Shown: one piece after another, positions 9,611 through 62,846 of the stretch
How positions within the stretch are numbered: the stretch's first letter is position 1
Layout of the letters: each line of letters begins with the position of its first letter
Source: Antedon bifida
Lineage: Eukaryota > Echinodermata > Crinoidea > Comatulida > Antedonidae
Length of the DNA stretch: 64,000 nt
Direction: 5' to 3'
NCBI GenBank assembly: GCA_963402885.1
Contig: OY727096.1
Span: 19,945,820-20,009,819 of the forward strand
Notes under the pieces: generated by a model
Seen by the model: only the letters and a program-made list of their open reading frames with translations
Told to the model about the DNA's origin: nothing
The model's database searches: none
Position numbers and translations under genes: made by a program

Positions 9611-9616
9611 CATCTC

Positions 9617-35485: not shown

Positions 35486-35590
35486 ATGTCCGAGAACGTA
35501 GCATCATGGTATCAAGTGCACCCGTCGTGGGAGAATAGATGGTATCCCGAAGCAACCGATGTTCCATACGAATCATTGGATATGTTCATG
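35486..35590 (+). CDS. Candidate first coding exon A (35 codons, phase-0 donor)
   Basis: Seen: an ATG with A at -3 opens 35 codons that end exactly at ATG|GTAATG, a good splice donor at phase 0. A TGA lies in frame two codons before the ATG, so translation would start in this exon. The peptide is rich in Trp, Tyr, Glu and Pro (it begins MSENVASWYQVHP and ends ESLDMFM), unlike the Ile/Asn/Lys/Phe-rich random frames around it, and the exon has more G+C and CpG than its flanks. Past the donor the frame hits a stop within 14 codons. No signal peptide, membrane segment or known domain is visible, and I do not recognise the family. Inference: the most upstream of a set of alternative first exons, with its shared partner exons outside the window. 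It could instead be a conserved non-coding element that happens to be open. Confidence 0.55.
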
Positions 35591-37949
35591 GTAATGCATA
35601 CAGTCTTGTTTTATTTATTATATATTATTTAATTTGACAGTTGAACAGTTTTGATAGATCTGTTGTTTTTAATCATCACACAGCAGTATTAGCGATCATG
35701 TCCAGGTCATCAATAATATATTTTTTTTTGTGATGCAAAGTGATTTAAAGTTTTTTTGACATGTAATCGGATGTGTTTTGAACATTGCTGTTGGACTGTC
35801 CTACAGGTGTTTGTACATTGTCTAGTCGTGTTTAATTATCTCTGTTATTTCACCAAGTAGGTGAGCCCTCAACTTATGATTGTTCTAGTACCTATCCATT
35901 ATTAAGTTCTGCAAGTCTTAATTTTAAAAAGCTTGAAACTTGAATTAGTTTTACATTTAGTTAGTTTTAAAGCTGTTTTTCTTATATTCAACTTTAGTAT
36001 TATCTGTATATTTATTTTTAACTAATACTATTTATATATCAGTTCATCCTTCAGTGAAAGACTGCCCTTAAATATATAAGACTATTTTTATTGTGTTACT
36101 CTTGATAGCTTATTTGATAATTATACACTATTCCGCTATAGTTAATAGTAAAGATGATATAGTTACAAGAAAAGAATTTTATATATATGTTGTGTATATT
36201 GCAATGCGTGAACATTTCACGTTCTAACCGGCTTTTCTTAATTAAACAACGAACTGTGATTGGTCAAAAGCAACGATTTAAGGAAACTTGTTTAATAAGT
36301 GCGGAAGCCTACTGATTTGATTTCTAAAGAGATTGCGATAGAAAATAAGACATTGTGAAAGATATGATGATATTTAAATGTTTTATTACAAAAAGACACC
36401 TAAATGTGATATTTAAAGCGATAGAAATAATATGAAAACACACTAAATGACTATTAAGTTTATATTTTATGACAGAACCAATGATATATCTTTTTTAAAG
36501 GATATCCGACCTTAATATTTTATACTTAAAATGATTGACTTTATAATGAAGGTAAATATAATCTTCCGTTTCTATGTTATGGTTGTCTGGTTTGATGTTT
36601 TATTTGACTACAGCAATAAAACACCACATTCTTAGAGAATAAATTTTTGTTGCTGCTTGATGCATTTTTATAGTATTTTTTTTCATAGTCCTACATTTTC
36701 TTCTTTTTTTTCATTATACAGTTAATTTATTACAACGTTTAATAGGCCCTATATTTTATTTATGGTTGAGTTTTACTGCAGCAATTTTAGTCCATATTGC
36801 TACCATAAATTTATAGGTCCATGTTGCAACTTACAGTAGAATTATTTTTTTATTTGCCATATGAATCTTTTTTTTTGTTTTCTCACTGTATTACTACTAG
36901 AATAAAAACAAATTTGGTTGTATTCCGTCGGGAATGCTCCTATACTTATTTTCAGAAATCCTGATTGGAAAAATACAGTCAAGATTTAATATTCAGATTT
37001 AAGGAATTCTGATGAATTTAAGTCAGATTTGTGGAGGGATTTATTGAATATACAACTGATCTCTTTAAATTCATTTCATTTTTAGCATGTGTGACAAGGT
37101 TGTGATGGGACATTTGAGTGCCCAAATCTTTTTTTAAAATTCTGCAATTAAATAGCCTCTTGAAGTAGCCCATAATCTGGAGAAATGTGTAAGCATAGGG
37201 AGCCCTCTATTTTGAATATTTTCTTAAATTGCACCATGAACGTATACATTCATCTGTCAAGATTTGTTAGCCTTTTTGCAGATGTTTTTTAGTGTTTTTA
37301 ATGTAAGGTCAAGTATTGTATCTAATTTTAATTGGAATGAATCAGAATTTAAGGTTGTGAGAGGATGATGTGAGGGATTGAGGTTGTTAAAAATATTGAC
37401 AGGCTAATTAATGTGGAGGACACACGTAGCCTGCTAAAATAATACAGTCCACCTTCTTTGTATTATGCAACATATATATTACTGGAACCATACCTTTTTC
37501 ATGTTTATTAAGGAGAGTGCCATAATTTTTAGAGTAGAACCCCTCATTTTGGACAATACAACGATTCAAGGAACAACCCCGGATTTAAAATGAAATTAAC
37601 AAGGGGTAACAGATGTTTTAACACTACAGCCAATCTCTATTCAGGCGAAATTTTGGTCCTGAAAGTGTTCCCTTAATAGGTGTTAATATCAATTTTACCT
37701 TTGTTCCCCATGTGAAATTATTCTTTTTTTAATAAATATTTATATTTGGCCAGATTGTGAAAATGTAAAAGTAGCGTAAAGACAGGAATATCTTGATATT
37801 ATCGATCCTTGGTGTAAAACATCTTCAATAGTCATTAAAATAAATTGTGGATCAAATTTCTAAAGCGCTAACATCTCTAAATTTGGTTTCAACTCCATGC
37901 AAGCTTTGATGAATGTCAAAATCTGTTAAGCCTTTCAACTTGTGATGTC

Positions 37950-38170
37950 GTATCATTTTGGATGTTGGCATTCTTTGTCGGTATTCATCAGTAATGGACG
38001 TGGCGTACCATGGTTACCTGGTTTTGACCTAGGGGCGTGTAATATGACCCTTGCGAGCACGTAATGCGATCACTCAGAGGAATTGGCTTTCTATTTCGAC
38101 TATTTGTTCATCTGCTGAAGGGGGTTTCAATCAACGGTTGAATGTAAACAAACCCATTAACTTTTTTTGT
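37950..38170. promoter_or_regulatory. Candidate cis-regulatory patch in putative intron 1
   Basis: A higher-complexity stretch containing a near-palindromic GTACCATGGTTACC resembling an RFX X-box, TTTTGACCT with a nuclear-receptor half-site, GGGGCGTG, a Myb-like CAACGGTTG and a forkhead site GTAAACAAAC within about 150 bp. The open frame from 38051 covers part of it but its product looks random, so I read the region as regulatory, not coding. Confidence 0.25.
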
Positions 38171-39459
38171 TTATGCATATGGATTTTCATAAAGAATTTT
38201 TTTCGGTATGAAAGCTCTTCATCTCATGTAACAAGTATTTTGACTGGGCTTTGTGTGGGTCTAATAAGCGTTATCTTAGAAATAGTATCCTGCACTAATT
38301 AGTGTTTTATAAATGAAATAAACATCATAATTTAAAATAATAATGTTGTTATATCTGCAGACAGCAGGTACAGTTCTCATAAAAAAAATCATTGGAGACA
38401 AAAGATGTTTTATTGAATTAAATTACACTGATTACATATTTTTATTGATTGATTTTTTGATGATCATTATAGTATCATTTTGTTCTTTTTAAATCAAATT
38501 TAAGTTTATTTTAATCAATATTTAATTATATTCTATCATTATAATAATCATCACTCATTGCAAAATAATAATAAATTCACAATCGTTTTGTTCATTCAAT
38601 ATTATTCATTCATTCATTTAGTACTCTTTATTTCATAATCTGTGTACATATAAAAAATATAACATCTTATCAATGTATTATTATGAATTTCATTATGATA
38701 TCAGCTATATAATGACTGACTATCACCAGCTCAGCTTATCATCAATACTTCAGTACTATTTTTATGATTCTATAATACCATAAATTACCACCGCCATATA
38801 TGATATAATACGACTGTCACTAAAGATTGACTGTATTATGAATTCAATTAAGTTCTGTGTTAAAAGAAGCAAAGGTTAAAGATTACACAGTCATGTATTC
38901 GGCAAGCTGTAATTAATGTAGCATAGAATTATAACTTTGTAGACAGTAGGCCTAGCATTAGTAATAGTTCTCAATCAATGGATTAGGTAATGCAGTTTCA
39001 ACTAATATATAATTTATATATATATAATTTGTTATCAAGGTCATTGCAAGAGAATTATTATTTTAAGATTGTTGGTATTGTTTTCATCGTAATGGCTCTG
39101 TATCTTGTTTTCTGAGAGTCTTAGTTCTAGAAGCAAACCTATTCTGTTGTTTCTTAAAATTCAAGAATTATATTTTTACACTGTTGTATTGGTCTATTTG
39201 AAATTACAAACCATATTTGGAATTAGTGTGGAATGGGTCTTTAACAGCGAAATTCTTTAACCAATTTACAATTTTTATTGTTTCTGTGATTGTAGTATGG
39301 GAGGTTGTAAAAACACAATAAAATGAACTGAAGAAACAAATTGATGAATAATTCACACTTCAAATATTGATAAAGCAACAATTAAAAAAAAAAATCATTT
39401 GCGATGTCATTACTGTTGTATATTGTTTACAAGATACCACAATATTATCATATATTTAT

Positions 39460-39640
39460 TGAAGACACTGTTCAACGACACAGCAATTCTGCAATCATTG
39501 TTACAGTGAAGTATGCCATTGACGAATATTTACCACATTTCGCTTTCGCAAGTGTCCTGAAGTACCGTAGGATCTCTACGGAAATTAAAACTACAAGAAA
39601 GGCCATTAACACGCTTACTATTCATCAAGATTAATGGATA
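39460..39640. promoter_or_regulatory. Candidate regulatory patch with IRF/ISRE-type element
   Basis: Contains TTTCGCTTTCGC at 39538-39549, whose reverse complement GCGAAAGCGAAA fits the IRF (ISRE half) consensus GAAANNGAAA, followed by CAAGTG and preceded by a forkhead-like AATATTTACC. The surrounding 180 bp have more CpG than the neighbouring DNA. The open frame at 39404-39634 spans it, but its start is AT-rich and no splice sites are obvious. Confidence 0.2.
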
Positions 39641-40197
39641 TTTTTCCCAAAGAAAACTCTTCATTACAATACATTAAAGTCAATGACACGTAGTTCTGAA
39701 AAAAACATGTTCTAGAAAATCACTTCAGAGCACATAAATTTATTTTCATCTTATTACGAGAGGAAAAGAGGCCATGAAGATGATTGCTCTGGTTTAAAAG
39801 CAAATAATTATTTGAATGCTAATCATGTTGATTAGTTTTAGTGTCACTTGAAGCTGTCATTGCAGAAGTATTTCCATAGTAACTGCAATATGCTAATAAT
39901 TACATGTAAAAATTTAACAGCTTTTAGAGATGAAATACCACATAAAAATATATTTTTCCAATAAAAAAATTTACAAAAAGTAAGAATGGGCGAAAAAAAG
40001 TAAAAATGTACATGACAAAAAGAAAAATAAGAGAAAATCAGCAAGAATAAGAAAAAAAATGTTATTTGCTTTAACAGGATGAGAGCTAGCCATACAGACT
40101 TTCATTATGTGTTAGGGATTGGCGTGCAAGCTTATTCATGAGAAAATTACTGGTATCCAATATTAAACCAAAGATTATACCTACAAGATTGACACAT

Positions 40198-40245
40198 CAC
40201 ATTTTTTTGTCACATAAAGTTTGATAGTGTAGACGGTTCTCTGAG
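40198..40245. mobile_element. Solo terminal repeat of the same MITE family
   Basis: On the minus strand it reads CGTCTACACTATCAAACTTT and continues into GTGACAAAAAAATG, matching the left end of the 53189 element. The other end is missing, so this is a decayed or truncated copy. Confidence 0.5.
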
Positions 40246-43200
40246 TTGCTTGATTACTTCTTTAAAACGTTCACTTAGCACGGACATAATAGTATCTGGA
40301 CTTTGCGCTTGAATGAGTGAATAATTAATGAGCTTGTAAAAAACTTAAAATTGTCAATTTCCAACCATTGAAATAATTGACTAGATTATTATGGCTACTA
40401 TTTTTCTTCACAGTTTGATGATAAAATACTTGTACTTGCTTCACTATACAGTACTCGAGTACTATTATTATACCCACTCAATCATGTGTTGTTTCCTCTG
40501 GGTAAAGGCGAACAAAGTTATGATGTGTTTTCTTGTGTTACATTTCTGCTTTAATTTTAACACCAATAACCTTTCGATTGAAAGTTCACAGAATTCTAGT
40601 TGCGTCACACATTTCCCATTAAAGTATATGATATCAAAATTATCTAAAAAAATGTATGTGCCATACTTAAAAAGTAATTCAAAAGAGCATCAGAAAGCAA
40701 TTTTGAGCACTTGATTGAAAATCTGTTTTTGAAGAACTCTGTGAAGTGGATTTATTGTAAATCTTATAGATATTAAATACGACTGAATTAGAGAACTTGG
40801 TCTTTCTGATTTTGATTTGCAATTTATTATTAGAATGTTAACTCATCTGCATCAATCAGTTGTTGCTGATGGTAACTTGTAACTGAAAATATGAATTGAA
40901 ATTAAATATATATCTTGTTTAAATTCATGCTTTTTAGAAAAGCAATTTTTTTTCTAAGCTCAGTAATTGAAAAACATTAGAAAAATGTTCATTGAAAAGT
41001 TGTTGACACTTCCACTTCCAACAAGACTTCCACAATTTGCAGACTTGCAGTATAGATGCAGTATAATAATCTACACTTGGCGTCTCATACCATGAAGAAC
41101 CCTGGCATTTGTTAGTTATGTTTATTTCAATATGCAATATAATTTTTTTGCACTTGGCGCCCCATAGCAAAGCTATTTGAAGACCTAATGTAACTGGCAT
41201 GTACTAGGTGTATTTCTAGATAGCTTCCAATTAGTATTGTTTGTTATATGTCAATTACTGACAGCACAGGATGTCAACTTGTATTACTAATTCTCAGGGG
41301 CAAATTTCCTATCTCCATGAAATAAATTCTTTCAAATAGTCTTCTGACTTAAAGAAAGCAAATTTCTATATTATTGTGTATGTATAAATTGACAGGCTTA
41401 CATGGATAGCATGCAGAAGATGTAAATCTCCATGGTATATGTACAATATATAAATATTTTATAGGATGAATAAAGAAACACATAACATACAGTCTTCAAA
41501 GGTTACAGAAGAACAATTTATCAGATTCTATTAATTCTATTAGCTTTGTACTTTTGCTAGCATTTTTTCTTGCCAAATTGGCTGTCGACGGAACCGTCTT
41601 TGGATTAATCTTAACTAGTTAAGCAGATAAACTCTATCAGATTCCAGCATTCTCACCAAATTGCTTTGTCCTAAGGACTTAATTTTTGTCTTATTTCGCT
41701 TCATTAAATTTGGTCTATAAACACTGTAGCATAAACGCGACAGGGAAGGCCTGGGGATGAACGGCAGAGCCCTAGTTCCCTGTAGTTTTGTGAAAACTGA
41801 GCATCAATGCTATTTTGAAATCAATATTTATCGTCTTTGACTAATAGCAGTAGTTGTTTTGTGGTGTTACTCTTCAGTTTAGTTTAATCCCGTTTGTAAC
41901 AATCTCAACGAGCCTCCAGTTAGTTTTCGTGCGTCAATGATAATTTTGTTTTATTCAATCAGATAATAGTTGTTTTAAAGTCTTGATTATAACATTCTAT
42001 ACTATTACTCTAATAATATGTCTTTTCTTTTTGTTAATTTCAATTTCGGTCAATTTGACATAAAGGCCAAAATCATGCCTAGGGCATATTCTCACTGTAA
42101 GTGAAGAGCCCGCTGTATTATAAGACAAATTGATCTATGCTTTGTATGTATTTATTTATGCTTTGTATGTTTTGTATTGTCTTCAGGAAATAAATTTAAA
42201 TCTTTAAATAAATAATTACCCTGATAATTCAAATTGATAATTCAAATTGATATTTTAGAAAATAATTTATTTTTAAAGTCTCCATCTTGCATGCTTCCTT
42301 CTTTATTGACTTTATATTTTGTCTTTTTTCCTATCTATCACACACGTGTAGATTTGTAACTTTTATATTATAATATTTATAAATACACATATATATATAA
42401 GTTGTAAAAACAAATGAATAATCAAACTCTATACTGTACTACTGTATATTTTAAAATTTAAAAAAAAATTAATTGTTTGAACTGTAATGATGTTATTTAT
42501 TAATAATAATTATAATATTAATAATAGCAACTCAACTTTACAAACGGATGCAACACTTGATTGGTGTCTTTAAATTATTTATAACTTTCTTTCATAAAAA
42601 AAACATTTTCAACCAAAACTAACTACTAAACAACAAAGAATGTATGCCTATAATAATAAGAATTTATCCAAATTCCCTGCTGTTCTCAAATTCCATTTAG
42701 CACCAATCACTAACCACTTGGTTCAAATTACTGAGGAGCAACCATCAAACTTGATCCCCAACGATATCATGTGACCAAGTGAGTAAGTTTTCAAGCAATG
42801 TGATTGGTTCTGCTAAATGACAACGACCTTCTTCTCCAAATTAGTGAAGTGAGAAGTTTTAAAAACAACTTGTTCATGCTGAAAATTGTAATCTTTTTTG
42901 CACAAGATTTTACGTCATTGAATATTTAGTGGATATAATTGAGGAGTTCTCATAAGCTTGTTTGCTCTGAGGAGATCTAAGCCAGAACAATCTTTTATCA
43001 GTGGTTGAAATCATTGGAAACTTAAGTTCCTCTGATAAGGGAGGCAATCTCCTATTCAGTAAATCACTGTAAGAAAAACAGCATTGGACTATATACTGGA
43101 AAATGAATATCATCTCACAGGTCAACCCTTGGGTCAAATCCTCATCAAAGATGCCAGTTGTATTTTTATCGGTAAGATTTTAATAATTGATAATGTGGTC

Positions 43201-46200
43201 ATGTGGTCAATATTTGTGTGAGTAATCCATTATTATTTAATGAGTTTGATTTTCTAAAAAGGTCTGTTTTTGATTACCATCTTGTAGGCTAGGCCATTTC
43301 TTCAAAAGTGTGACGCATGTTGTCGTTTAATCGTTTAGCATATGGTCAAGTAATTGTTTCTTTAGTCCTTGGCAATGTCATCATGTTTGTTGATGGACAG
43401 TAACTTTGCTAGAGTGGATTTATTTATCTATGTACATTTAATTATGTTTCCTTACTAGTCATTTTCTCAGCCTGGACCCTAACATAACATTTTTTGTAGG
43501 TGTAGGTGATAATTGTTCACCATGCCCACCTGACGTAAGGAGATACTGTATGTAGGCTAGCCTATGCAAATCTCAGACAGGAACTTTCATTACAGTGTGT
43601 GAATGCACTTTTGAACTTGACTGTAAAATTGCCATTAAATAGTCATTCCTTGACAGAGAAGGAAATGTTATCTTGAAGGTGTGGTTTATTTTTGCTTTGC
43701 AATATAATGTTTGGTGCTAAAAACACAAAAAGAAAGCAAAATCCACATTACAACACAAGTACAGTATATTCAAAACAGATTTATTATATATATGCTGATC
43801 ATTGAAATGTTGGACAAAGTTAAATATGTTGTATTGATTGATAAAGAACCCTCATGGATGAAATAAGTATTTAGATTGGCTGATTAAACTTATTGAATAT
43901 TCATGAGGATACTTTGTTTGCATTTAAATTCTCAGTCAGATGGATTTGTTTATTCAGATTCTCTGTGCATACTTGAAAGACACTGGGAATGAGGTTTCAT
44001 TACAGTAACCATAGATACCAGGGCAGTGAAGCAATAGTTCAGGGTCATCGGGCATGTCATCTAGTCATAACTATGACACAATGTCATGTTTCCCAGTTTA
44101 TAATGCTACTCATATTTCTCAGTTAAAAGATGGGTTAAATCATATCTATTTTAATATTTTTACTTACATTTTCTTTAGTTTCCATTTTTCCAGTTCTTTA
44201 TTAATTATATATTATTTTAAAATTAATATCAACAAGCAACATATTGGGATTTTGAACAAAATCCTATCTATTAAACTCATTATTTTACAATTTCCTAATA
44301 AAAGATAACACTCAAGTTTTTCTCCAGTTTTAATATAATATTTTTCTGTAAAAGCAAACAAAACTTTATTGACAGTAAAAATTGATTTTACAAATTTATA
44401 GCAGCCTCACATGAAAAAAGAAAGAGACCTTAGTGAGTAAGTTCCACGACATTTAATAGAAACTATAATATCTCTATGATAGAAATCAGAATTTTAATGG
44501 TAAGTGTGATCTGGGAAAAATACAATGCAAATTCTAGAACGTAATAATATTAACAAATATTTTTCACAATTCAAAAAGGATACCAATAACAGAATAAACA
44601 GAAATTCATACAGATGAGAATTTTTTGGATTCAGAATTGTGAATCAATATTTGATATTTTGGTCTTGGAAAATTCAATCAAAAACATTGCAAGAAAATCA
44701 ATTAAATGGAAAAGAAAGATGAGACCTTTGTGAATTGCTTTCCATTTGTGACAAATACATCATTTGAGTCTGAAATTCATTCAATTTTGTTGGATGGTAT
44801 TGAACTTGTGTGAGAGAAAGAAAAAAAAGATTTAATACCTTTGTAATGTTTGTTTTTATCTTCAATTATATTTGTTGTTACATAGAGATTATTTGCTTTT
44901 CCTGTGGTCCCTTTTGTTGTATGTATGATACAATGTTTCAGTGGTGATAAATGTTTGTTTAGTGAAAGGTGGTAAATATTAGGATTTACTGTATGAGACA
45001 TAATTGTCATCTGCATTCAGGTTGAACTGATTGTTAAAACTCTAACCATGGAGATAAATTATAATATCTGTGTGCTTTAAGAGTCTATAGTAATATGTTA
45101 CGGTCTTCCATCAAATTCATCACTTATGTATTGCTTCCACAATAAAATGAATGGTAGTAAATAAAAGCAATTCAGTATTACATAACCTTTATATAAGGAA
45201 AAGCTATAGTTTATTATCTGACTATGACACTTTCATGGCTCTATGGTATGACATCGCAGCAGGCAGTGAATGTACTTAGATGATATTTAACATGGAAAAT
45301 TACACAAAAAACATGTTTTTTAGCTCTTTTTTTTATATCATAACATAAAGTGCATAATGTAATGGTAAACAAATTCATTCATTGAACAGAGTAATCAGGG
45401 ATGTAACTATAACTTCATAAATCACTGTTCACAAGAAACTCTCATAATTTTTTTTTTTAATTTTTTTTTTTTATAGTTTTTCTAATAACTAGACAACACT
45501 GGGCTGTAGTACTCCAAAATGTCTTATTTCCTAGAAAGTATTTCAATTTAAGGAAAGAATAAGAAAAAGGGCTAAACTTAACTATTTGTCCTATCTTTTG
45601 CACAGTCATTTTTCAAATTAGAGCGGGGTGGGGTGGGATGTGTGGTGGAGATGGATCTGCCCTTGATGATCTTATCATTATTAAGCTACTAATCATAGAA
45701 TATGCTAAATACAAAATTTATCAAAGATAATGTAAACTGTTTATTCAGCAGAAGTTAGTGGTAACCTTTGAACTCCAAATTGACAGCTCCTTGGCAATGC
45801 ACTATATTCTTTGTTTACAGCATCATAGTGTATTTTAATTAAGAATATTGATGATTGGAAAGATGAGGCGTTAAATAGAGCAGATAAGATTTATTACCGG
45901 TAATGAAACTATTACTTGAAATTCTAGAAAAGCAAATGATAATGAAGATGAAGTCTTTATCATCAACAATCAACCATAGAACCATAGATAATTGGACAAA
46001 AGATTTTGATGCATAAAGCAGTCTTGATATTGTCTATACTGTAGTACCTTTTCAAGGTCTGCTAATCTTTTAACATGTGTCAAGCTTCATGTTCAATCAT
46101 TTTAATGATTATAATCTCTTTTTATTTTGATCTCTAATAAACATTACTCAATTATCTTGTTAAGAAAATGTGTGTCATCTTTTCCATCACAAGTATTGTA

Positions 46201-47824
46201 CACATGCAGATACTGTATAAGCCTTCATTTTGGGACGATACTGTAGACAGAATGAGACGATAATTTATACAGAATTTATCTGTACATGCATATAAACCCA
46301 TTATACATTATCGGGATTGTATTTGGTCAAAATTAGAAATTTGTTATATGGTACCGAAACAAAAGACTTGCTATAACCAAAACCCCTTAAACCTGGACAA
46401 AACATGTCTGGTTTTCCAAATTTTTTTTTTTAAATAATAGAATAATTTAGGCTTTTTAAGCTGAAGAGTTTTCAAGGAGTCTCAAATACAAAATGATGAT
46501 GTATGGTGACAAGCATTATGGATAATGTTTGATTTTAATTTGGATTATTTTTTAAATCCGTAGTATTATCTCATGACATGTATTGATTACAGGCATTATA
46601 AACAGAATCTCTGTTTGGCATTTTTGACATTTACCTACAATGTCTAACTAATGATACTTAGACTATGTTCTTGAAAACTGTCTTAGCTTATGTAAGTTAA
46701 AATAGTATGTAAATCCATAGGCAAATAGAAGGTGGGGCTCACCCATTTTATAATTCTTTATCCTGCCCCTTACTCATCTTACTAGATAGAAAAACTATGT
46801 TGAACTTAATCCTTACATTGGAGTGGAAGCCCGTCGCCATTTTTATTGTTCATGTCTGCTCCAAAATTAGTCTTAAGATACACTGTAATTTCTAGGTTGT
46901 TAATATTTGTTTTATGTATAATTATTCCACATCCAAGTCACTAGAAGATAACAAATTCAAAGCAAAAATATATCAATATATTCAATATTCAATAATTATG
47001 TAGTTCACAAACCAATTTGTTATAAGCCTATTATAAAAATGAATTTGCATCATCGTCACGTCAAGCAATTTCAAACCAATTACACGTTTTATAAAAAATT
47101 GTATAATTTTGTTGCAAAAGATGGATAAATTTAATTTTCCTAATGCAGTTTTACTTTCTCTATTGAGAAGGTAGTAAATGTTAAATAGGAAATCAGTCAA
47201 CTTAAAAAGTACTAATGTCTTTTAGTAAATTAAATAAGCCTAAAGGTTAAAATAACTGAATTTAAACTGCAATACATTTAGATTCATTTTATTTTCTTCC
47301 TTTCTTATCATCATCATCATGGCAATCTTCCTATTAATCATGGCCTCTCTCTATCTTATTTTTATTATAACTCTCCTTCGTCTTTTTCCTTCTTCTCTTT
47401 CCATGTATTCTTTATCCTCTTTATCTTCCTCATTTCCCCCTTTAAATTTGCATAGGGCACGCTCACACTGAGCATGCTCCGTATAATCAATCACATTTGA
47501 TATGGTTTTTCTTTGTACATGATTGCATGTTTGGTATTCAACCTATGCTTTTTAGAATTAATAATGTTTAAATGAGCATAGCAATATTTTGAATTCCTAA
47601 AGTTCTCTGCAATTTATTTCAATTAACCTTCATCCTTATCAATTTTATTTTCAAATTCCATATAATTTATTTCAATTAAATTAAGATTCAATCATTTTTA
47701 TGTCATTGTAATTTATGAAATAAATCAATCATATTAAAATGTTTAGACAGCACAAATCGGACACATCTTGTCAAAGTATTTAGTATATTTTACATTTTTA
47801 CATAAATAATTGATTGATTGAGTG

Positions 47825-49960: not shown

Positions 49961-50169
49961 TTAGTTTCAGGGAAGTTAATCAAATTTGTGATCGTATTCT
50001 TCAGTAGGGTCAACTTAAATATCAGCAGATTTGTTTGTAACAGGAATGATACGACAGCATTGATTAATTTAATCCTATCAGGCAATAAAACTAGTATTGA
50101 AACGATTGGATATTCCATAGAAAAATACTTTACGATTACTTATATAAACCGTAGGAAAAACACAATTTA

Positions 50170-50385
50170 ATGTTAACCACTAGTAATATTATGAAGGAGA
50201 TGACAATGCCAGTAACAGCTGCCGCTTTGGCTGCGAAAACGTCCGGAAATAAGCTACCGTTTTGTCTTCCAATGGCAGCAACATCATCTTCAGCGCACCA
50301 TGGAATGGGGAACATGGTTTTTGTTCAACAACAACATCAACAACCATTGTTACAGATGCTTATGTTGCAAAAGGAATTACAGAAG
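50170..50385 (+). CDS. Candidate first coding exon B (72 codons, Gln/Ala/Met-rich, phase-0 donor)
   Basis: Seen: 72 codons from ATG to AAG|GTATTA, a phase-0 donor. An in-frame TAG lies at 50152-50154, just upstream. The ATG at 50170 has a poor context; those at 50191 and 50200 have a purine at -3 and may be the real start. Residues 14-24 are Ala-rich, residues 38-48 are Ser/His/Gly/Met-rich, and residues 53-72 contain VQQQHQQP followed by a Leu/Met/Gln run that could form an amphipathic helix continuing into the next exon. CpG-containing codons such as GCG, ACG and TCC-GGA set it apart from the AT-rich flanks. The Gln-rich, low-complexity composition is common in transcription regulators, but no family is recognisable. 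The 850 bp upstream look regulatory. It is on the same strand and has the same donor phase as the other exon candidates. Confidence 0.5.
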
Positions 50386-53188
50386 GTATTATTGTTTTTT
50401 ACGATATTGTTATCTTATCAGATATATAGTTGTCTTCGGTGCATAGGGTAGAGGTTTTTCTCCCATCTTGAATTTTTTCAGTTGAGGACTGCCAACCAGG
50501 TTAATTTCAACCTTACCTTTACTTAATTAGCGTTTAAATTATTCTGTTGTATTAATAAAAGATGTTTTGTAACTTTGTGTATAGCTAGTAGTAAGTACAA
50601 CATCTGGATCATTTTGCCATTTTTACTGTAAGCACATAAGGTCCAATTTCAATATAAGTCCTTAAAATCTAAATCTTTTGTTTTGTTAAAGCTGGAATTT
50701 ATGTGGTTTAGTCTAATGTGTTATAACTGCTTTACCTACTAAGCTTACGGATGTTTGTATAGTACTAATACAGTAGTATTTACCTATGTGCTTTTCCTAT
50801 TTAGCATTACAGTATAAATGTCCTTGTTTGTCTTAGGCTTTAGTTTAATTTCCTAGAACCATCAGTTAATTTCAAGCACCTTTCCTTATTGTCCAAAGCA
50901 GTAGGTTCATATCCTATGCTAAGACAGTACTACTACTATTTACTACTAATTCTTGTCAATAGAATACAATATTATTTTAAACCAGTTCACTATAGCAAGT
51001 ATAACACTTCTAAATTAATAAAAGTGTGTTTTACATTGTTATCGTCATGTCAAGGTTCAATTACATGATAATGATTTGCCAAATATCACCTTTCTAATGA
51101 TGTGATTTTTCCTATTCACATCCTTCAACATTCACATTCTAGCGTGAAATTGGACAATTCTGTTGGTGTCATCTATGGATATCAAATTACATTTTTTTAT
51201 GTAACACTAGATGGTGACTGATGAACTATTGATCACAAATATTTTTTGTCGGACACAAAACTATTTCTAAATTGTAATTAAAAGTTCATATATTATTATT
51301 AATGAATACATGAGGCTTGACGATTATCTTTTTTCCCCACACCCATCTTTTTTCACCACTCACAATATATTTATAAGTCATTAAAAAGCAAATTTGTAAT
51401 ACTAATAGGCCAAAACAAATGAAATAAAGTCTCAGTCACAAAAAGTCTTGAAGATGGCTAGTACCTCAACGAAAGGAACTATTACATTCTACCTTATATC
51501 ATTTAAATATAATCTATAAATCCACAGTTTTTTTCAGTCATTAAGAATGTAATTAAATAAGAAATAGTCTGTACAGACTATTACCTGAATTGAAATTTTC
51601 TAGTAATTAAAATGCTGTTTACTAATTGTTAAAATGTTGGCCTCTGTACACACCAACTGTTGTTAATAGTAAGGTCACATTTTAATTAGTTATAAGGGAC
51701 ATCCGGTACCACCTGGTGTGTTGTGATAATGGTGGTCAATACTATGTTGAGTTGCATTTAATATCTTGACACCAGGATGTATAGTAATATTATTTTGTTG
51801 TTAGATTTAGAATTCACAGTATACTACAATTTATTTGCCGGAAAATAAAAATTGTCATGGTTTTACAAAGGCATATGTTTCAAAATACATGACCAGTACA
51901 TTGTTGATGTGATTAATGAAAATAAATGTAGAAAAAGTTATAGAAAATCTCCCTTTAAAATATAAAAAAACATGTGTTTTAATCCTTGGTGACCTAATGC
52001 TAACAAACTTTTCAGTGGTGTTGCTATTCGTTGTAAGGAGATGGAGAATTTATCCATGTTAAGGACAAAGAAAGTAAGATATTTTCATGCCCTGGCCTTA
52101 AAACCAGCATGAACACCATATATGGTATGCAAATGGCAATCTCTTTAGCACTAGAATCTACACCAACCATGCTGTTGACAAGAGAGATGTGACTAGTGTA
52201 AATATAATACCATTAGGCCTAGCTAAGGTATGCAGTAAAGACATAAATACTGTAAGCATTAATGCTGGCTGTGTTGAAATATTCTAGATATAAAAAATCT
52301 CTCAAAATAGAAGAGTTGATGGATGAATGATTTTAATATTATTTTTTTTCCCTTTATTTTATAACAACATTTTTGGTGAAAATTTGAATAATGAGGGTTT
52401 TCAATACAAGTGTATAGCACTTGACTACCAAATTAAAATAAAATAAATTAATACAATATAAAAATTAAAAAGACTTAACATAAACAAAAAGAAAGGAATA
52501 CAATTTCCATTTTAGAAAAAGCTTAAAAATTGATTCAATTTGTGTAATAATCAAATTGTTTAAAGTAAAAATGTAAAAGTAAAAATGTAAAAGTTGAGAT
52601 TTAAAAGATGCTTGTGTTTGGAAATGGTACAATGTGGTCCCTCTAATACTCAATATTTGAAAATCTTAAACTTTCATTCAAATCGTTTCTTTTTACGTTT
52701 ATAAAATGACTATTGTACGATTATATATTATTATCTTTAAGGTACCCCATTCTTCATTTTTACAAGCCAATTAAATTAAGGCTAAAATTGGATAAATTGA
52801 AACAATGATACAAAGTTTGGTTGTCCACATGATTTGTTAATTGCTTGATCAATAATTCCGTGACCAAACAGCTATTTGATTTAAGAATGTTATGAATATA
52901 CGCCATCACGCTTTTTTTACGATCGTAAATATTGCTGATCAAAGGTATACAAAGTTCAGTGATGAAATGAGTGAATTTTGACACAGTAGCAATATAATAT
53001 AATCCAAACCTTTTTACATTTGAAACAGAAATAATTTTTATTTCAGTATAATATAAGAATTCATCAGGAGCAGATCAAGGATTTTTTAAATCTTGGGAGC
53101 ACTCAAAAATGTAAAAAAATATATATCAAAAATGAGTTCATAATTTCTCTCTGTCAAAGGGGAGCGCACACCAATAGATCCACTCCTA

Positions 53189-53339
53189 AAGCTCTGTCTA
53201 CACTATTGAATTTTATGTGACAACAAAATGTGATGTGCCCATATATGGATATGATAATATCATATCACTTCTATATTTGGGCAGTTTGACATATCACACT
53301 TTTTCTTGTCAAACTGGTTTAATAGTGTAGACAGAGCTT
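53189..53339. mobile_element. 151-bp fold-back MITE with TA target duplication
   Basis: Starts AAGCTCTGTCTACACTATT and ends with its exact inverse (19 bp); the arms then continue as an imperfect inverted repeat almost to the centre (TGTGATGTGCCCATATATGG on the left against an inverted TATTTGGGCA block on the right). TA flanks both sides (53187-53188 and 53340-53341), the target of Tc1/mariner-type transposition. It has no coding capacity. Relatives sit at 24424-24594, 40198-40245 and 47905-48030. Confidence 0.75.
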
Positions 53340-53998
53340 TACATTCAAGATATAGATTAATATACTAATTAAGGGTTTTCTATTTTTTTTCTCTCTTTAC
53401 ATGTTGATTTCATCTGTGTGTTTTTCATCATGGTATGCATTCTCCACACACATCTGATGATTCAAAATTAGCAGGTATGTACAAAATCTATGTTTAAAAT
53501 CTTTCATTTGTGTTTAAATATGTCATTCACACCGCTTTTTGTAATTGTTACAGTATGGTAACGTACAGTATTACTAACTCCACCCAGCTCAATATCTTTT
53601 CTCTAGAAACTTTAATAATAAAAAAATATTAAACTTAGGTAAAGTTTTTGAAAGTTTAATGAAGCACAGATTACATTAATGATGTACTAATGTCTAACCT
53701 GAACATTAATCAAAGCCCTAGGATTATTAATGGACCAGTACAACTAATAACAAAGGTAATGAATAATATTACTGCAAAACATTAATGTTTTTCACCCAGT
53801 TGTTATACTTAGCTTCAGCTTAGACTACAGCCCATAAATTATGTATCTGTTCATTACAACCATATTCAGTACTGTATTTTATATCAGTTACATGGATGTG
53901 ATTTATAATTAGGATCCAGTGGCTGCATGTACCATTTAGTTCAGTTTATTTCCCATAGTTCTTAGTTGGACCGTAGACGTATTCACCATTAGGCTAAC

Positions 53999-54225
53999 CA
54001 AAATACTTTTTCTTAAAATTGTAATATTCTCATATCTAAGGAAATATACCTACCACTTTACCAAGTATATTTATTGACTTAAGTGAAGGGATACGGCCGG
54101 TTAAGATCCGGTGGTATTCAAGATTATGCTAAATACCTATTCTTACACTTTTAATATTCTCCTATTTAAGTATAAATAGACCTACCACTTAAGGGAAATC
54201 TTTATTGACTTAAGTGAAATACTTA
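53999..54225. repeat. Diverged tandem duplication
   Basis: Two units about 128 bp apart share TTAATATTCTC-type, ACCTACCACTT and TTTATTGACTTAAGTGAA blocks in order. The interval between them contains a short CpG-bearing word (GGATACGGCCGG). Confidence 0.6.
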
Positions 54226-54539
54226 CTATTTAAAAGCAATGCCTTTAAATGTTATTGTAAATACAGCCACTGGAAATACACATGGAGTGAACATACTGTA
54301 ATCTTTTACAAGGCATATTTTTTTCCCCATAAAATGTAATATTATTCTAAAAAAATATATCTTTTGTATAGTTTATATATAAAAAACTTCGAACTAACGA
54401 TTCATTTCTGAATAATTATTTTAATCTCATATTGTGATCATTTAAAGGCAGTTGAAATTAAATTATGTATTCATGATTATAGGGAATATATAATTCCTAA
54501 ATAATATTCATCATAAAGTATAGAATATGAATTTAGATC

Positions 54540-54720
54540 TTAATTAAGTCGGCCAATCATTGAGCGCAATATTGATTAAGTATGTTCTTGTTGAGGTACA
54601 ATTACTAGAATTTAAGTAGCATTTTTTTTATCAGCGCACGTCGTAATGATCAGACAATTTAGAGTGATTTGTGGGAGCGAGTTCTTGACGAAGTAGAAAT
54701 GATTAGGGTTTTTTATATCT
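54540..54720. promoter_or_regulatory. Candidate conserved non-coding patch
   Basis: Balanced-composition stretch with CCAATCA, GAGCGCAATATTG, AGCGCACGTCG and GGGAGCGAG, flanked on both sides by homopolymer-rich DNA. No start codon with a sensible frame is present. It lies in the putative intron between exons B and C. Confidence 0.18.
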
Positions 54721-56397
54721 TTACGATAATGTTTGCTTCTCATGCAACTACAGTAATTTGTATTTAAACAGCATTATTTAGTCCACATAGTTATAGAAAG
54801 TTCATATACTTAGTTTTGTAACCTATAACATTTGACCTGGTCTTGCTGATGTTACAAATATACATATACTCTAATTAACAATAAACCCAAAATATAATTT
54901 ATAAGCCTGTTTCTATTGAAAAATACCAAACGAACTGTTTTCCTTTTATTTCAAACATCTGTACTGAAATCCCACAACATAGTTCTGTGGATAGAGTGAC
55001 CGAGTTGAGGTCAGCACTGGCCAGGTTGAGTTGAGGAAAAATTGTTCTAAACCAATTTAAAGACAGTTCATGGTAATCAAGGCCGGAATCAATTAAAGGT
55101 CTTTGAAACTGTTTTTAAAAGATCATGGTTTTTCTGTGGGCATATATCTGTTAACAAAGAGAGAAAAAAACACACCACATGAGTCTTGTTGCTAATCTTT
55201 CTGATAGCCCAGATGACTTTGAAATGAGCAAAAAAGTTACTTATACAGTACGTACTAGTCTGAAGTCAATCACTATACTAGTATAAACCAACCCTTTACT
55301 GATTTTCATTATTGATAAATAATAAGAACTATCTCGTATCAATTAAGTTATAAATCGAGTACTGTAGCATTGAATGCTTATAAACATTATTAATCTCTGT
55401 ACATTATAAATATGTATTAAAGTTTCAATGAATATATTACTATTGATATAAAAGAAATTATTTTCTGCAGTTTAAGATTTCCATAACTGTGAAAGTAGGC
55501 CTATAGGTAAAAGTAGCATTCCTGATAGGATTTCCAAATTGATTGAATATTGATATTGGTGAAGAAATTAAACATCACTCCTGTTCTAGACCTAATTTGC
55601 ATAATGCATTATTTTGCTAATATTTTTTACACTGGATAGAGTAAATCTTAATAGTACAAACATGTAGCCAGGATTTTATAGGGGTTGTTTTCTTTACAAA
55701 GAGGAACTTTTTTCCACAAAATGGCAAAATCTTAATTTATCTTCTAAATGTAGTTGGCATATTATTACTTTTGATACTGGTCTCCAATTTAAATGGTTCT
55801 TCAGGGAAAAAAGTTGGGGGGAAGGGGGTGGTGTTGGCCTCTATGGCTACAGGTGTGTAGTTTAATACCGTAAAACATCTTCTGTTGCTGTACACCTCAG
55901 CTTTCCCTGTATGACACCCAATAAACTAATATAGGATAGGACATTAATTTTTTGGAATACCTTTGAATAGCGATAATCCTTGTTTATTGCATTTCAAATT
56001 AAAATTGTATTATATTGTGAATGACGATCATTTTTGTAATGAATTGTTGATTACCAATACTCAAGTACAACTGTGAATTTGAAAAGGCTAGAAACAGAGT
56101 TAATTAAACACTTTCATTCAAATGTATTTAGATTATGCAATCGTAACAACATTGGCCATAAATTTGTTAATTTTTCATTAATATTTATACAAGCCTGAAC
56201 GCACTTTATTAACAGATTCTAATTCTGTTGATAATTAAATTCGTGATAGCATCGTGAACCGAATAGACGTTTGGATAGGTTTGTAATCGCCCGTTTTCCC
56301 CTTGGCGACACATAAATGTTTAGACAACGGTAAAGAGCTAATTACCTTTGGATACAGTACAATTTCGATTGATAAAACTTCTATTTGCTCATTTTCT

Positions 56398-56826
56398 TCA
56401 TGCTAAAAAACCATTGGAAATATTATGTCTATTTATAATGTCTATAAATATATACATTTTTGATGGAAAAAAATAAGAGAAACTATTAACGAGTCTGAAA
56501 AGACATTGTTGGTTGCTTCCATTTTCTTGTTTATTGCGAAAGTAAAGCATCATGGTTTGGTGAACTCTGAGTAGCCTCACACACACCTCAATCTGCGAGT
56601 ACAGGTGTTTCGCAGGAAGTCTCATAGCGTGGTATGAGAAGAATCTTCTATCACCATCTCTATTATTGATCTCGAAGATTGATATTACTTTATTTTTGTG
56701 TGTAACGCATCTGTCAACTTTGACAGAGGAAGGTGTTTTCTCTCGATGGTGATCTGGTCCACTTAACTTGATTTTTATATTTTCGGCTGAGATTACTTTG
56801 AGGAGCCTGCTACAAACTGTGTACAT
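56398..56826 (-). other. Longest open frame of the window (142 codons), doubtful
   Basis: ATG to stop on the minus strand. By rough estimate a chance frame of this length in 64 kb of such AT-rich DNA is uncommon but not surprising. The middle (residues about 25-90) has balanced use of Arg, Asp, Val and His; the last 35 residues are Phe/Ile/Asn-rich as in random AT-rich frames. There is no domain, signal peptide, membrane segment or convincing splice site. It overlaps a higher-GC patch (56200-56830) that may be a conserved non-coding element instead. Confidence 0.15.
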
Positions 56827-57726
56827 GTTATTTGTTTATTTGCTTTTTGAGAAAAATGTTGCTCAGATGCCTTTACAACAACAATTCCAGACTTCATAAT
56901 GGATATGATCTTCTGTGAATAGAATTAAATGCATACAGGTACTGTACCTACAGTATGTTTTGAATATTTTTGCAGTCATTCTGAGACTGATGTACTTGCG
57001 ACTTCAATTCAGTTTTCTTTTCATTTTGCCTGCTATATGTACAACAGTACTACAACATTATTAGAAATATGTTTTTTGGAGCAATTTTAAGCGTTATTTA
57101 ATTGTGTTCTTGGACTTATATTGAAGATTCCACATTTGGACCCAAGTATGTTTAAACTCTGAACTGGCAATATGAATTTTAATATATGGATCTTACTTCG
57201 TTAACGCTATTATTTTCTGACTGCAATTATGCACTTTTAATATGTAATCACCAATTGTTCTAGAACATCTTGCATTGGTAACGAACCATACTCTACTCTA
57301 CTACTAATTTCTCGGAAATCTTGACTAAATAAACACATTTGTCTCAACATTAGAATGCCCAGAGAGCATCATAATTTGAGAAAAAACCATTAGTAAATTT
57401 ATTTCAATTACGCTTTTCAGAAGACTTTCTGTGCGTGCAGCTTTTCATATTAAGAACCAATTTCATGTGTGCAGCATTTTAGAGATAAATATAGCGTTCT
57501 GCTCTAACAAATATGTAAGCTGATGATGGTGAAATGTAGAACATTGTTTTTTTAAAACCTAATTTCAAAATGCTTCAACTGTAGTGTATGCATATTCTAA
57601 AATGAGGTGTATCTTCCACAAAAGTACATTTACCCATTTCCCCATACTTTGAAAAATTATTGGATAACATAAACTGTCACTTGTGAATTGAACATCTGAA
57701 TTTTTACGAGGATATTTGTTCAGAAA

Positions 57727-57816
57727 ATGGCGCTACCGGCGTTCACCTTCATCCGCAGAGAGTTTATGCTACCACAGACCAAATCATCTGTTGGATATTT
57801 ACTTCCACTCCGGCAG
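57727..57816 (+). CDS. Candidate first coding exon C (30 codons, phase-0 donor)
   Basis: Seen: an ATG in an excellent context (AAAATGGCG) opens 30 codons that end at CAG|GTTTGT, phase 0. A TGA lies in frame at 57697-57699. The peptide starts MALPAFTFIRREFMLPQ and is mildly basic and hydrophobic, with no domain I recognise. An overlapping frame at 57716-57931 is longer but Cys/Tyr/Arg-rich and looks like a shadow. The donor is acceptable but not optimal, and the same CAG could also act as a weak acceptor because a short pyrimidine run precedes it. It is the weakest of the four exon candidates; its case rests on the start context, composition and shared phase. Confidence 0.3.
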
Positions 57817-58289
57817 GTTTGTACCAATTGTCTACTTCTACTGTGTGTGTGTATATAGAGAGGGAGTATTATTAGACAGAATGAAAAGCAAAACCTTCAA
57901 TATTGCTGTACAAAGCTTATTTTGTTGCTAGGCTTGCCTGGTTAAAGCAACATTTATCCTCAATTTTGGTATAGAAGAAAAAACAATAATCTCGATTTAA
58001 CTTTTACAGTGATTAATAATTTTGGTCATCTGCTTAAAACATAAATATTATCATTCTTGTATTAAATTGGTTTTTATGCTGCATATACCCTAAGGATATC
58101 ATTTAATTTGTTTTCAAAGGTCTTTTGTTTGTTTTCGCTTAGAACCAGATGGTTTATTTAACCACTTTTGTTTATATTTTTCTAAATCATTTCATCCCTT
58201 AATACTGCAAATCTCTGTGTTAACGTCAGTAGAAAAAGTAAATGACAACAAAATCTCCTTTTGTGTATTTTGTAGTCATAAAAAATTAG

Positions 58290-58560
58290 CCATCACATAT
58301 TATGAGATTATCTTGCGTCTCTAAAATCCATTTTTTAAGTTCTTTTTAAACAATGTATTAACAAAAATATTTTTATAGCAATATTTTGAAAGTTAAATTT
58401 GTTTAACATCAAATAGTAATGTTTTCACATATCACAAGATAATCTTGCATCTTTAAAATCCATTTTTCAAGTTCTTTTTAAACACACAATGTATGAACAA
58501 GAATATTTTTATAACTACATTTTGAAAGTTCAAATTGTTAATGTCAAATAGTAATGAAAC
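58290..58560. repeat. Tandem duplication, 132-bp period
   Basis: ATAATCTTGC / ATTATCTTGC, TAAAATCCATTTTT, AAGTTCTTTTTAAAC, ATATTTTTATA, TTTTGAAAGTT and CAAATAGTAATG recur in order with a 132-bp offset (58322 and 58454). Copies differ by roughly one base in ten by eye. It lies between exons C and D. Confidence 0.7.
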
Positions 58561-58729
58561 ATAAATGCTAATATTTATTTAAAAGATGAATTTATTTGTT
58601 GCATTTATAATGTGTACAAGTAGTATTGTTCGATATATTATGATATATGAAGAGCGCATCTCTATTATTGTATATCAACAAGCCAATCCTATTGTCCATT
58701 GTTACATTCAAATGTATTCAATTACATCT

Positions 58730-58990
58730 CATTCATTGTCCTTTGCGCGACACGGGAAGCTTCAGGCAAACAGCGTACTAACTTAATCTGCACTACCAGT
58801 CTCAAAATGTGTTGTTCAATGGTCATTGAATCCCTGATTACGCATCGTTTATTACCGTAGCAGCCGCATACGATGAGAAATGCGGGAATATTGATCATCA
58901 GTCGAGTTTAATTAGTCTTCGGTATTTCATATTGATCCACGCTTTAAACGAGTGATAGTGGTTTTAAGATTCATCATGTCTGTGTATTGA
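58730..58990. promoter_or_regulatory. Candidate conserved non-coding patch
   Basis: CpG-containing stretch (TTTGCGCGACACGG, TTACGCATCG, GCAGCCGCATACG) with homeodomain cores such as TTTAATTAG and GGTCATTGAATCC-type words. No coding potential is evident. It sits about 0.9 kb downstream of exon C. Confidence 0.18.
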
Positions 58991-59979
58991 AAATGTAAAT
59001 GGCTGAGAAAAGAAATCAATATTTTGTTGAGGAAAAACAAAAAACATGAATAATTTATTCAGAAATGAAGATTTGATTTATATTATGAGTTTCTTAATTA
59101 TCAGTAAATGTAGTAGTATTGTCTTAATTTAATTTTACACTGGCTAACTGAATCCCATCATCTTCTTGTTTTCTGGTTATGTCAACATAGCCATATATTA
59201 AATCTGTCAAAACAACTTTAATATCATCATTTGCAAATTTGTAATGACAAACCTAGCATCCAACAACATTAAACTCTTCACCAACAATATCATAATGATC
59301 ATCATTATCAGATCAACATTATATATCATTAATATCATCATCTTTTTCAACACCGTATCTTTATCATCAACATGTGATCAGCCATATCCATATCCATCCA
59401 TCCTTCAATTATCATTTTTAGTTTACTAAATTGGCAAGTTTACATTATACTGCCCTCTATATTGTGTTACATGATAAATGGTTTGATTGGCTCTTTGATA
59501 AATTCTCTTATTAGCATCCCTTCTGCAGCTTTGCCTTAGCAATCTTTTATTAGCGCCTCATCTGTGGCATTACTTGACCTCAGCTATGGAATGCTGATTA
59601 ATGAATTATTACCTACCAAGCTGGTTTCTATTTTCAATTAGTCATTCATTCAACAAATTAAATTTGTGTTTGTGCTGGACAATTTATATTTAGTACATGG
59701 TAGATTTTAATAAAATTAAATGATGCATATATATATAAATATAAACGGTATACAGTATAGGATTATATATAATCTAGGCGCGTGTACAGAGGTGGAAGCA
59801 ACAGCAACCAACCCTATAAATTCTGAGAGGAAAAAATTATTAGGCTAACTAACGTTTGGATATACAAAAAACATCCTGCATACATTTAATATTTCAGCTC
59901 CAAAAAATGTGTTGCCGATGCATTTTCTACAACTCAAATGGGCATGTTTATTATAGATGCTAATGACCAAGGTTTTTTA

Positions 59980-60529
59980 AAAATAGCACCCTCTATGTTT
60001 TTTTGTATTCTATAAAAATTATAGCACCCTCTATGGTTTTGCCATACGCTTTTATAAAGTATCCATGATATTTCATTTTTCCGAGATAGGACTTCTGTAT
60101 GATGCATAACAAGCATTTGTTAATATTCAGGTTTTCATTGTAGTTTTCAAACAAAAAAAATGTAATATAGGAATACATTTCCATAAAAGGCATATTATAC
60201 TTATGAACCACTGATGAACATAGCTACAGTATATGTATTTGGAATTTTATGACAAAAATATCACCCTCTATGTTTTTTTGTATTCTATAAAAATTATAGC
60301 ACCCTCTATGGTTTTGCCATACGCTTTTATAAAGTATCCATGATATTTCATTTTTCCGAGATAGGACTTCTGTATGATGCATAACACGCATTTGTTAATA
60401 TTCAGGTTTTCATTGTAGTTTTCAAACAAAAAAAATGTAATATAGGAATACATTTCCATAAAAGGCATATTATACTTATGAACCACTGATGAACATAACT
60501 ACAGTATATGTATTTGGAATTTTACGACT
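59980..60529. repeat. Recent 275-bp tandem duplication
   Basis: Two adjacent copies, 59980-60254 and 60255-60529, are almost identical; by eye the substitutions are at AACAAGCA versus AACACGCA, ATAGCTAC versus ATAACTAC and a few at the edges. Each copy carries CACCCTCTATG twice. Identical 72-codon minus-strand frames in each copy have no recognisable product and reflect the duplication only. The near identity implies a recent event or an assembly artefact. Confidence 0.85.
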
Positions 60530-60659
60530 CTCTTTAATGATGTACATAACTCAACTGTCCAAAGTCACTAATCCGTAATCTCAAACCTAAAACATTTCAA
60601 AACTATATTTAGAATTTAAATGATATGTTTTCGCAGCCATTTCTCTAGGTGCTATATAG

Positions 60660-60920
60660 ATGCACACCGTTATGAATCCATCCTATGATTTATTGTCGTT
60701 CTAAAGAGGACGCCATTTTACAGAATGCCATCTGTTATTGCGCCGGCAATTTGGCGGTCGTTGTCTGTGTGAAATCTGTACAAAAACAACTCTGTAAATA
60801 GACAGATATTATTGATGAGAGAATATCATCATAGACTGCTTATCTCTGCTTAAATGTCAAGGGGCGGGGCTTTGATGACAATTCAGATATAAGTATGAGA
60901 ATACAGCTATGTTCACATTA
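60660..60920. promoter_or_regulatory. Candidate promoter/enhancer with GC box, E2F-like and YY1-like sites
   Basis: A compact higher-GC island in very AT-rich DNA. It contains GCCATTTTA (YY1 type, about 60712), TTTGGCGG (E2F type, 60750-60757) close to GCGCCGGC, and GGGGCGGGGC (Sp1/KLF GC box, 60861-60870) running directly into CTTTGATG (TCF/LEF type). These are classic proximal-promoter elements of animal genes, although no coding frame follows within several hundred bases. It lies 1.8 kb upstream of exon D and might drive a non-coding 5' exon or act as an enhancer. Confidence 0.35.
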
Positions 60921-62687
60921 GTATTAAATATCTTAATTAAATTATAGTTCATATATTCGATTTGAATGATTTTGTTTCAAAAAAATAACATTAACAATTT
61001 TAATTTGTATTTATTATTTTTAAAAAAATGCATAACTTATATATTTTAAAATAAAAATTAATAGATATATTTGTTATGATTCATAAATACTTCAGTGTTC
61101 ATTTTGTCATTATTATTAGCTTGTAAAATTTAATAATAAAAATGTACAAATACAGTATATTTTTGTGGAAAAATAAAAACAATTTTGTAACAAAAAATCC
61201 AGAAATTGATTGCAGAATTAAATGTAGCTATATCTCAATATTTGAATAAAAAGTATTTAATTTACTGCAGTAACTGCAGTAGATCATTTTAAGACAGTCT
61301 GTTAATGAAAATTACACAAAATGTCTACATAAATAAATCAGGCTGAGTTATTCACAGATTGCTGTGGCTGTCTCAACAAAGACATGTCAGATTTGATTGG
61401 CTGTTGTTAAATGTTAAGTTCTTTTGTTCTTGTGTGATCCCTAGAATTCCGTAAGGAGCTGTTCTTCAATTGCCCCTGCATATCCTGTCATAAGATTGGC
61501 TAATCCACTAATAATAATAGTTCACACATCAGGAAAGGAACTGGTTTTTTAAAGAAACCTAATTAAGAAATTGATTATTAATCAACTAAATTTAACCCAG
61601 CTATTGTGTAGTTAAATAGTGCAGCTGGGCTATATTAACTTGTTTTTAAATCCACCATGAAAATTTAGAAACATTTCTATTTATTTTTGCTATGTATTGT
61701 ACACCATGACATACATGTTCTTATAATTCTAGTACTTATAAAACCATGTCATACAGTATATAATTGTTTTACATGAAAATATAAATAAAATCTTTCTTCC
61801 TTACATACCATTATGTTTTTAATATATAAATTTTTTTCTAACCGACCCAATAGCAGCTGTTTTATAAATATTAGATATGCTATTTAAACAAGATTAATAT
61901 AATTTTGTTGTAGTAATAGTATTCATTTTTTCTGCACATAAATTAGCATAATGTATCACCTGACATCAATCTATTGTTAAAACTGTTTTTGTTTACTCCA
62001 GTAGGATTTTTAATGAATATTAATAATAAATTTTTTTTAGATCTATTGTGACGTTTATGAATTAATTATTCCAGCTGAATTAGTAATTATTTTTTACATA
62101 ATATTAATAAATAATTTTAATACATACATAATTTTATTTAGATCCTTTGTCAGATAATATGTCTTAGTTTACATTATATTTTTAAAATGCATAATAGATA
62201 TATATTAGGTATACTTTCCATTTGAATTCTGTGTTTTAATTAGCATAATTTTCTTGTCATACAATTGTTCATGAGTTTTGTTAATATTAACAATCATTAT
62301 ACTGAAGTGGATATACGGGATTTCAGCCAGATGATTGGAAAAAATCTCATTTGCATATTCACATTTGAAATGCGAAAGATTCAATGAGATATGTGTAGTG
62401 TGATATGCGGTCGTGATTTATTGTTATTCTCTGCCAGCGACTATATCATTACTGAAATTAATGTACAAAGCTACACCGGTTGCTTCAGTAGACACCTATG
62501 CTTGGTCTTGTCGACTGTGTTTATTTTACTCTGAGGGCCTAGCAGAATCTCTAAGCCTATCTGACCTAGCTAGGTATTTTGTTACCTACGCTCATCCAAT
62601 GCTGAGTAAGAAGACAGAGTTCATCTTCATCATTTGCTTGGTTATTATTAAAGATAAATTGTATACAGTTTGAGAAACGGTTGCCTG

Positions 62688-62846
62688 ATGAAGGGGACGG
62701 TGAAACCTAGTGATGCTGTTTCGCAATCCACAACGTCCACCTCTAACCTAGGCCTCACAGGTTTAGCGTCGCATTTGCTACATGCTCGGGAAGGTCAGCC
62801 TTGCTGGGTGAAAATCATGTCAAAAACCCCTCCTCAGCTTACTAAG
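62688..62846 (+). CDS. Candidate first coding exon D (53 codons, strong phase-0 donor)
   Basis: Seen: ATG followed by 53 codons up to AAG|GTAAGG, the strongest donor of the four exon candidates, again phase 0. An in-frame TAA lies at 62655-62657 and no convincing acceptor lies upstream, so this looks like a first exon. Residues 12-20 are Ser/Thr-rich, the middle is LGLTGLASHLLHARE, and the end is basic and Pro-containing (VKIMSKTPPQLTK). G+C content is clearly raised from about 62400 to 62870; the open frame at 62413-62673 in another phase probably reflects that composition (a 5' UTR) rather than a second protein. No known domain is present. It is the most downstream of the candidates, so the shared exons should lie beyond 64000. 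Confidence 0.5.

Follow-up and report, generated by a model that had tools for sequence, protein, structure and literature searches.

Multiple promoters and alternative N-termini are known for mammalian Rbfox1 and Rbfox2 (PMC7214753, PMC11380049). They describe several promoters for mouse Rbfox1, with stage- and region-specific first exons (PMC7214753), and at least four promoters for Rbfox2, one N-terminus of which carries a nuclear localisation signal (PMC11380049); Rbfox2 proteins starting with MEKK and with MAEG are also described in a further report (PMC5577181). Here we add a probable new example, from the crinoid Antedon bifida. The window, i.e., the whole stretch of 64,000 nucleotides at C9:19945820–20009819 (contig OY727096.1; the genome comprises 27 contigs and 315.6 Mb), is very probably part of an extended 5′ region of an RBFOX gene, in which four exons would serve as alternative first coding exons on a shared exon, 74703–75005. 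Among the papers listed by searches of a partial literature library, none had a title dealing with first exons of echinoderm RBFOX, and passages from a paper on Drosophila Rbfox1 (PMC8742874) contain nothing on first exons. The 100 kb flanking the window on either side were analysed as well, and the numbering of the window is continued into them. The four exons, designated E1 to E4, are as follows:

35486–35590, plus strand: E1, candidate first coding exon of 35 codons, phase-0 donor ATG/GTAATG
50170–50385, plus strand: E2, 72 codons, less well supported as a candidate first coding exon, phase-0 donor AAG/GTATTA
57727–57816, plus strand: E3, 30 codons, likewise less well supported as a candidate first coding exon, phase-0 donor CAG/GTTTGT
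62688–62846, plus strand: E4, 53 codons, well supported as a candidate first coding exon, phase-0 donor AAG/GTAAGG

An earlier note on this DNA, made from the letters alone, had described these exons, and its structural description holds. In-frame stops, placed by the note at most about 33 bases ahead of each ATG, lie 3, 15, 27 and 30 bases upstream in E1, E2, E3 and E4, respectively; all four donors follow a complete codon (phase 0), with the sequences that the note gave. The composition differs from the surroundings as claimed, GC content being 0.467, 0.417, 0.500 and 0.503 (E1–E4) versus 0.30–0.33 in the 500-base flanks; at the same length such values are attained by 1.5%, 2.6%, 0.7% and 0.2% of window positions. 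In a genome search, the peptides of E1, E2 and E4 each occur at one genomic place.

The plus strand downstream of the window carries exons of a gene identified through homology as RBFOX (Fox-1/A2BP1):

74703–75005, plus strand: first shared exon, 101 codons, phase 0-0
77751–77915, plus strand: exon encoding part of the RRM, phase 0-0
78123–78176, plus strand: exon encoding part of the RRM, phase 0-0
82428–82520, plus strand: exon encoding part of the RRM, 93 nucleotides, phase 0-0
From 85985, plus strand: exon completing the RRM
Near 86.4, 88.3 and 90.5 kb, plus strand: C-terminal exons, the last ending in ASVYRGGYARYTPY followed by a stop

This gene contains one Fox-1-type RRM. Compared with PDB chains, its 84-residue RRM matches human RBFOX1 (4zka) with E = 1.5e-48 and ASD-1 (2mgz) with 3.2e-34, the best chain of another family reaching 4.8e-29. 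Searching the genome with 70 residues of RRM sequence produced five matches, the top two being RRM exons of this gene and the remaining three being weak (E from 1.5e-4 to 8.3e-4, 37–41% identity); it is therefore the only RBFOX gene found. The C-terminal exons show weak matches to RBFOX sequences, and their joined pieces yield no Pfam family above cut-off. The mouse RBFOX C-terminus bears a terminal nuclear-localisation ending FAPY (PMC7214753). The region preceding the RRM, aligned to human RBFOX N-termini, gave unconvincing scores, attained by 58, 7 and 9 of 300 shuffles.

The first shared exon begins about 10.7 kb beyond the window end and is preceded by TTTTTTTCTTCAG. Its acceptor at 74703 is in phase 0 and has a score of 9.9; across 13033 AG sites the 99th percentile is 5.7. 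The earlier note had expected a shared, phase-matching acceptor beyond 64000, and the acceptor at 74703, opening the RBFOX frame, is what that expectation called for. E1, E2, E3 and E4 all lie on its strand, combine an ATG with an upstream in-frame stop and end in its phase, and each of them, joined to 74703–75005 and the next three exons, gives a frame free of stops. Because this phase-0 acceptor was found by homology and not by phase, the phase shared by the four exons gains weight. The suggestion that they are alternative first exons of one gene is thus well supported with respect to common strand and phase, the shared acceptor and a now named gene; the use of individual exons, above all E2 and E3, is only predicted.

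By analogy with mammals, each exon would have its own nearby promoter, translation would start at its own ATG, and phase-0 splicing over approximately 12 to 39 kb would join it to the shared second exon. The products would be RBFOX proteins with a common RNA-binding domain and differing short N-termini, which, as reported for mammalian Rbfox2, may alter the location or partners of the protein. Upstream of E2 we observe the sequence TATATAAA (50141–50148, 29 bases ahead of the ATG), a possible TATA box. If it is one, the transcript would begin close to the E2 ATG, and the next in-frame ATG, at 50191, might serve as the start of translation.

The four exons exceed chance expectation in part. Codon scores come from a small model trained on neighbouring genes (1935 codons in total, RBFOX excluded), and the null consists of stop-free, ATG-started stretches of equal length from the surrounding intronic DNA of both strands. 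Codon score and GC content together are matched by 1/278 null stretches for E1, 1/32 for E2, 4/399 for E3 and 0/84 for E4; codon score alone is matched by 13/278, 2/32, 47/399 and 2/84, respectively. By a generic donor matrix, the donors of E1, E2, E3 and E4 are equalled by 8.2%, 16%, 3.4% and 0.1% of GT sites, respectively (n = 14815 sites, plus strand, 264 kb). A scan for candidate exons between −20000 and 74702, which covered either strand and all phases and required a donor score of at least 2, returned 77 candidates; among these E4 ranks 2nd and is the best in the window, and E3 ranks 24th. Support is accordingly strong for E4, fair for E1 and weak for E2 and E3.

The most serious alternative is that only some of the exons are real, namely E4 and probably E1, with E2 and/or E3 representing open stretches that arose by chance inside a long intron; we regard this as a genuine contender, albeit with somewhat less than an even chance. 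Several observations that speak against four functional first exons are best considered here. The E2 donor is unremarkable, since 16% of GT sites equal it, and together with that of E1 it falls under the donor cut of the scan (score 2). The E3 codon score is ordinary, nearly fifty null stretches attaining it, and its place in the scan is middling. A candidate antisense to E2 overlaps it with a higher codon score (5.5 vs. 0.2). None of the four peptides matches a Pfam family at E up to 10, and mouse Rbfox1 first exons were mostly considered noncoding (PMC7214753). Enrichment of plus-strand phase 0 depends on the thresholds: strict criteria, chosen so that E1–E4 would pass, leave in the window exactly these four candidates in that class versus four in the five other strand/phase classes together, and looser thresholds give 6 versus 15 elsewhere, no clear excess. 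However, codon score and GC content are jointly rare for both E2 and E3, the E2 sequence is single-copy, and both exons keep the RBFOX phase.

Alternatively, some exons may be internal or second exons, either following noncoding 5′ exons or joined serially as cassettes ahead of 74703. Serial joining has a precedent in mouse Rbfox1, where E1A, joined in series to exons 2 and 3, contributes 92 residues (PMC7214753), and the sequence TTTGTTCAG three bases ahead of the E3 ATG makes a weak acceptor possible there; a further candidate outside the window, described below, has a strong acceptor ahead of its ATG. Nevertheless, no AG with a positive score is present within 120 bases upstream of either E2 or E3. 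Over this distance, the sole positive-score AG upstream of E1 is followed by an in-frame TGA, so E1 cannot be an in-frame internal exon, and the one upstream of E4 lies ahead of its in-frame stop. We consider this arrangement unlikely.

That the exons belong to another gene, such as NFI or a so far unrecognised one lying inside the RBFOX intron, is very improbable: the NFI domain PF10524 has a single match in the genome (C11:25900447–25900560), on a contig other than that of the window, and the next recognised gene downstream on the plus strand is RBFOX. The first exons of NFI genes give short alternative N-termini and join in phase 0. NFI was a candidate because of this common phase, and the lack of a family match for the E1–E4 peptides would also suit a different gene; E1 has only two chance-level matches in PDB, the best with E of 0.11. 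The earlier note had offered NFI as a precedent, claiming no link, and the relevance of this precedent found no support. The identity was dropped, as NFI probes had no convincing match in the window, and none reached E 0.1 across the window and 100 kb downstream. Among the 119 window sequences compared with Pfam (115 of the 126 stop-to-stop open reading frames of at least 60 aa and four others), a single one matched any family, DUF5483 with E of 0.0088; eight of the 11 frames outside this set lie in an ATC-repeat region at 27–28 kb. Scans of the window for tRNA genes and Rfam families gave no hits.

Alternative first coding exons of RBFOX may extend beyond the window. Two further candidates share strand and phase with E1–E4:

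−4693 to −4430, plus strand: outside candidate, 88 codons, phase-0 donor AAG/GTTAGT, scan rank 1
69549–69743, plus strand: outside candidate, 65 codons, phase-0 donor CTG/GTAAGA, scan rank 11, codon score only −1.7

Both give open frames once joined to the RBFOX core, and their codon score and GC content are together matched by 0/9 and 1/43 null stretches, respectively. In the first, a strong acceptor is located 27 bases ahead of the ATG, and TGA and TAA stand in frame between the two, so this would be a first coding exon behind a noncoding one. We infer that both belong to RBFOX; since phase and place partly guided their choice, they do not count as independent evidence in the argument from phase. 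We tentatively propose, while holding it rather doubtful, that the single RBFOX gene found has at least six alternative coding first exons over approximately 75 kb (−4693 to 69743). Among scan rows with a total of at least 4.0, 7/7 on the plus strand are in phase 0, set-aside ones counted, versus 2/5 on the minus strand. The set-aside candidates comprise −13283 to −13158, probably an exon of a MEIOB-like gene (a membership that is our own reading), −9359 (repeat-like sequence), 7175 (short) and 55793 (repeat-like by eye).

The RRM exon of 93 nucleotides (82428–82520) invites a separate comparison. Skipping of an in-frame 93-nucleotide RRM exon with (U)GCAUG sites nearby gives the −93 isoform of rat Rbfox2 (PMC5577181). 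In mammals, Rbfox proteins cause skipping of the equivalent exon, the resulting protein being dominant-negative, and the Drosophila Fox homologue is reported to have an equivalent exon that is likewise alternative (PMC3126832). Here the exon is in phase 0-0 and surrounded by TGCATG at 82372, 82394, 82419 and 82522, one of them touching its 3′ splice site and the copy at 82522 overlying its donor. These four copies, out of 20 on the plus strand of 96 kb, fall inside 156 nucleotides (82372–82527, approximately C9:20028191–20028346). Such features are those of an in-frame skippable RRM exon, and skipping is predicted. By analogy with mammals, autoregulation of RBFOX through this exon is likely. 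GCATG is absent within 400 nucleotides of any of the six first-exon candidates.

Several other features of the window and its surroundings were noted. Minisatellite arrays rich in ATC, their units measuring 83 and 157 bases, occupy 27055–28022, including a 20-base unit at 27955–28022, and show a strong C-over-G skew. At 59979–60528, a 275-base unit is present in two tandem copies matching at 98%, each with a 76-aa open frame on the minus strand. The region 7550–9800 has raised GC content (0.39 over 8001–10000) and repeat-like open frames, and is perhaps a mobile element. In the upstream 100 kb, neighbours recognised by eye or by weak match are BTB-kelch (plus strand), WASHC2/FAM21-like (minus), TSR3-like (plus), leucine-rich-repeat (minus) and MEIOB-like (plus) genes, the last through an open reading frame at −22.6k that matches PF24903 with E of 2.5e-4 and 20.8 bits, below the cut-off of 27. 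In COX1 on contig C27, the motifs NNMSFW, INMRSPG and GNWLIPLMIG, conserved across animals, appear when AAA is read as N and ATA as I (NCBI table 9). This code agrees with an echinoderm origin, although by itself it would also be compatible with a flatworm.

With RBFOX downstream, an otherwise anonymous 64-kb stretch gains a gene name, and the locus provides a concrete set of candidate N-terminal isoforms, open to testing, of a major splicing regulator in a non-vertebrate. One RBFOX gene, versus three in mammals, would offer a simpler setting for asking what the N-termini do. If the six first exons are true, promoter choice in a single gene would supply a range of N-terminal isoforms, and the diversity of RBFOX coding promoters would either be older than the split of vertebrate RBFOX1, 2 and 3 or have originated independently. 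The case also illustrates that strand and phase taken from raw sequence can hint at real gene architecture with the shared exon out of sight.

Compared with known systems, the locus resembles vertebrate NFI in its predicted short alternative N-termini and phase-0 joins; however, the gene is unrelated and the NFI domain lies on another contig. Like mammalian Rbfox1, for which first exons E1A to E1F are described (PMC7214753), it has several first-exon candidates across a long 5′ region, with predicted splicing to shared exons. Unlike in mouse Rbfox1, each candidate here has its own ATG, and no peptide similarity was found. The arrangement is also comparable to the MEKK and MAEG forms of mammalian Rbfox2, in which alternative 5′ exons provide differing coding N-termini for one core (PMC5577181, PMC11380049), whereas the N-terminal sequences themselves differ, a localisation signal being reported for one of those of Rbfox2.

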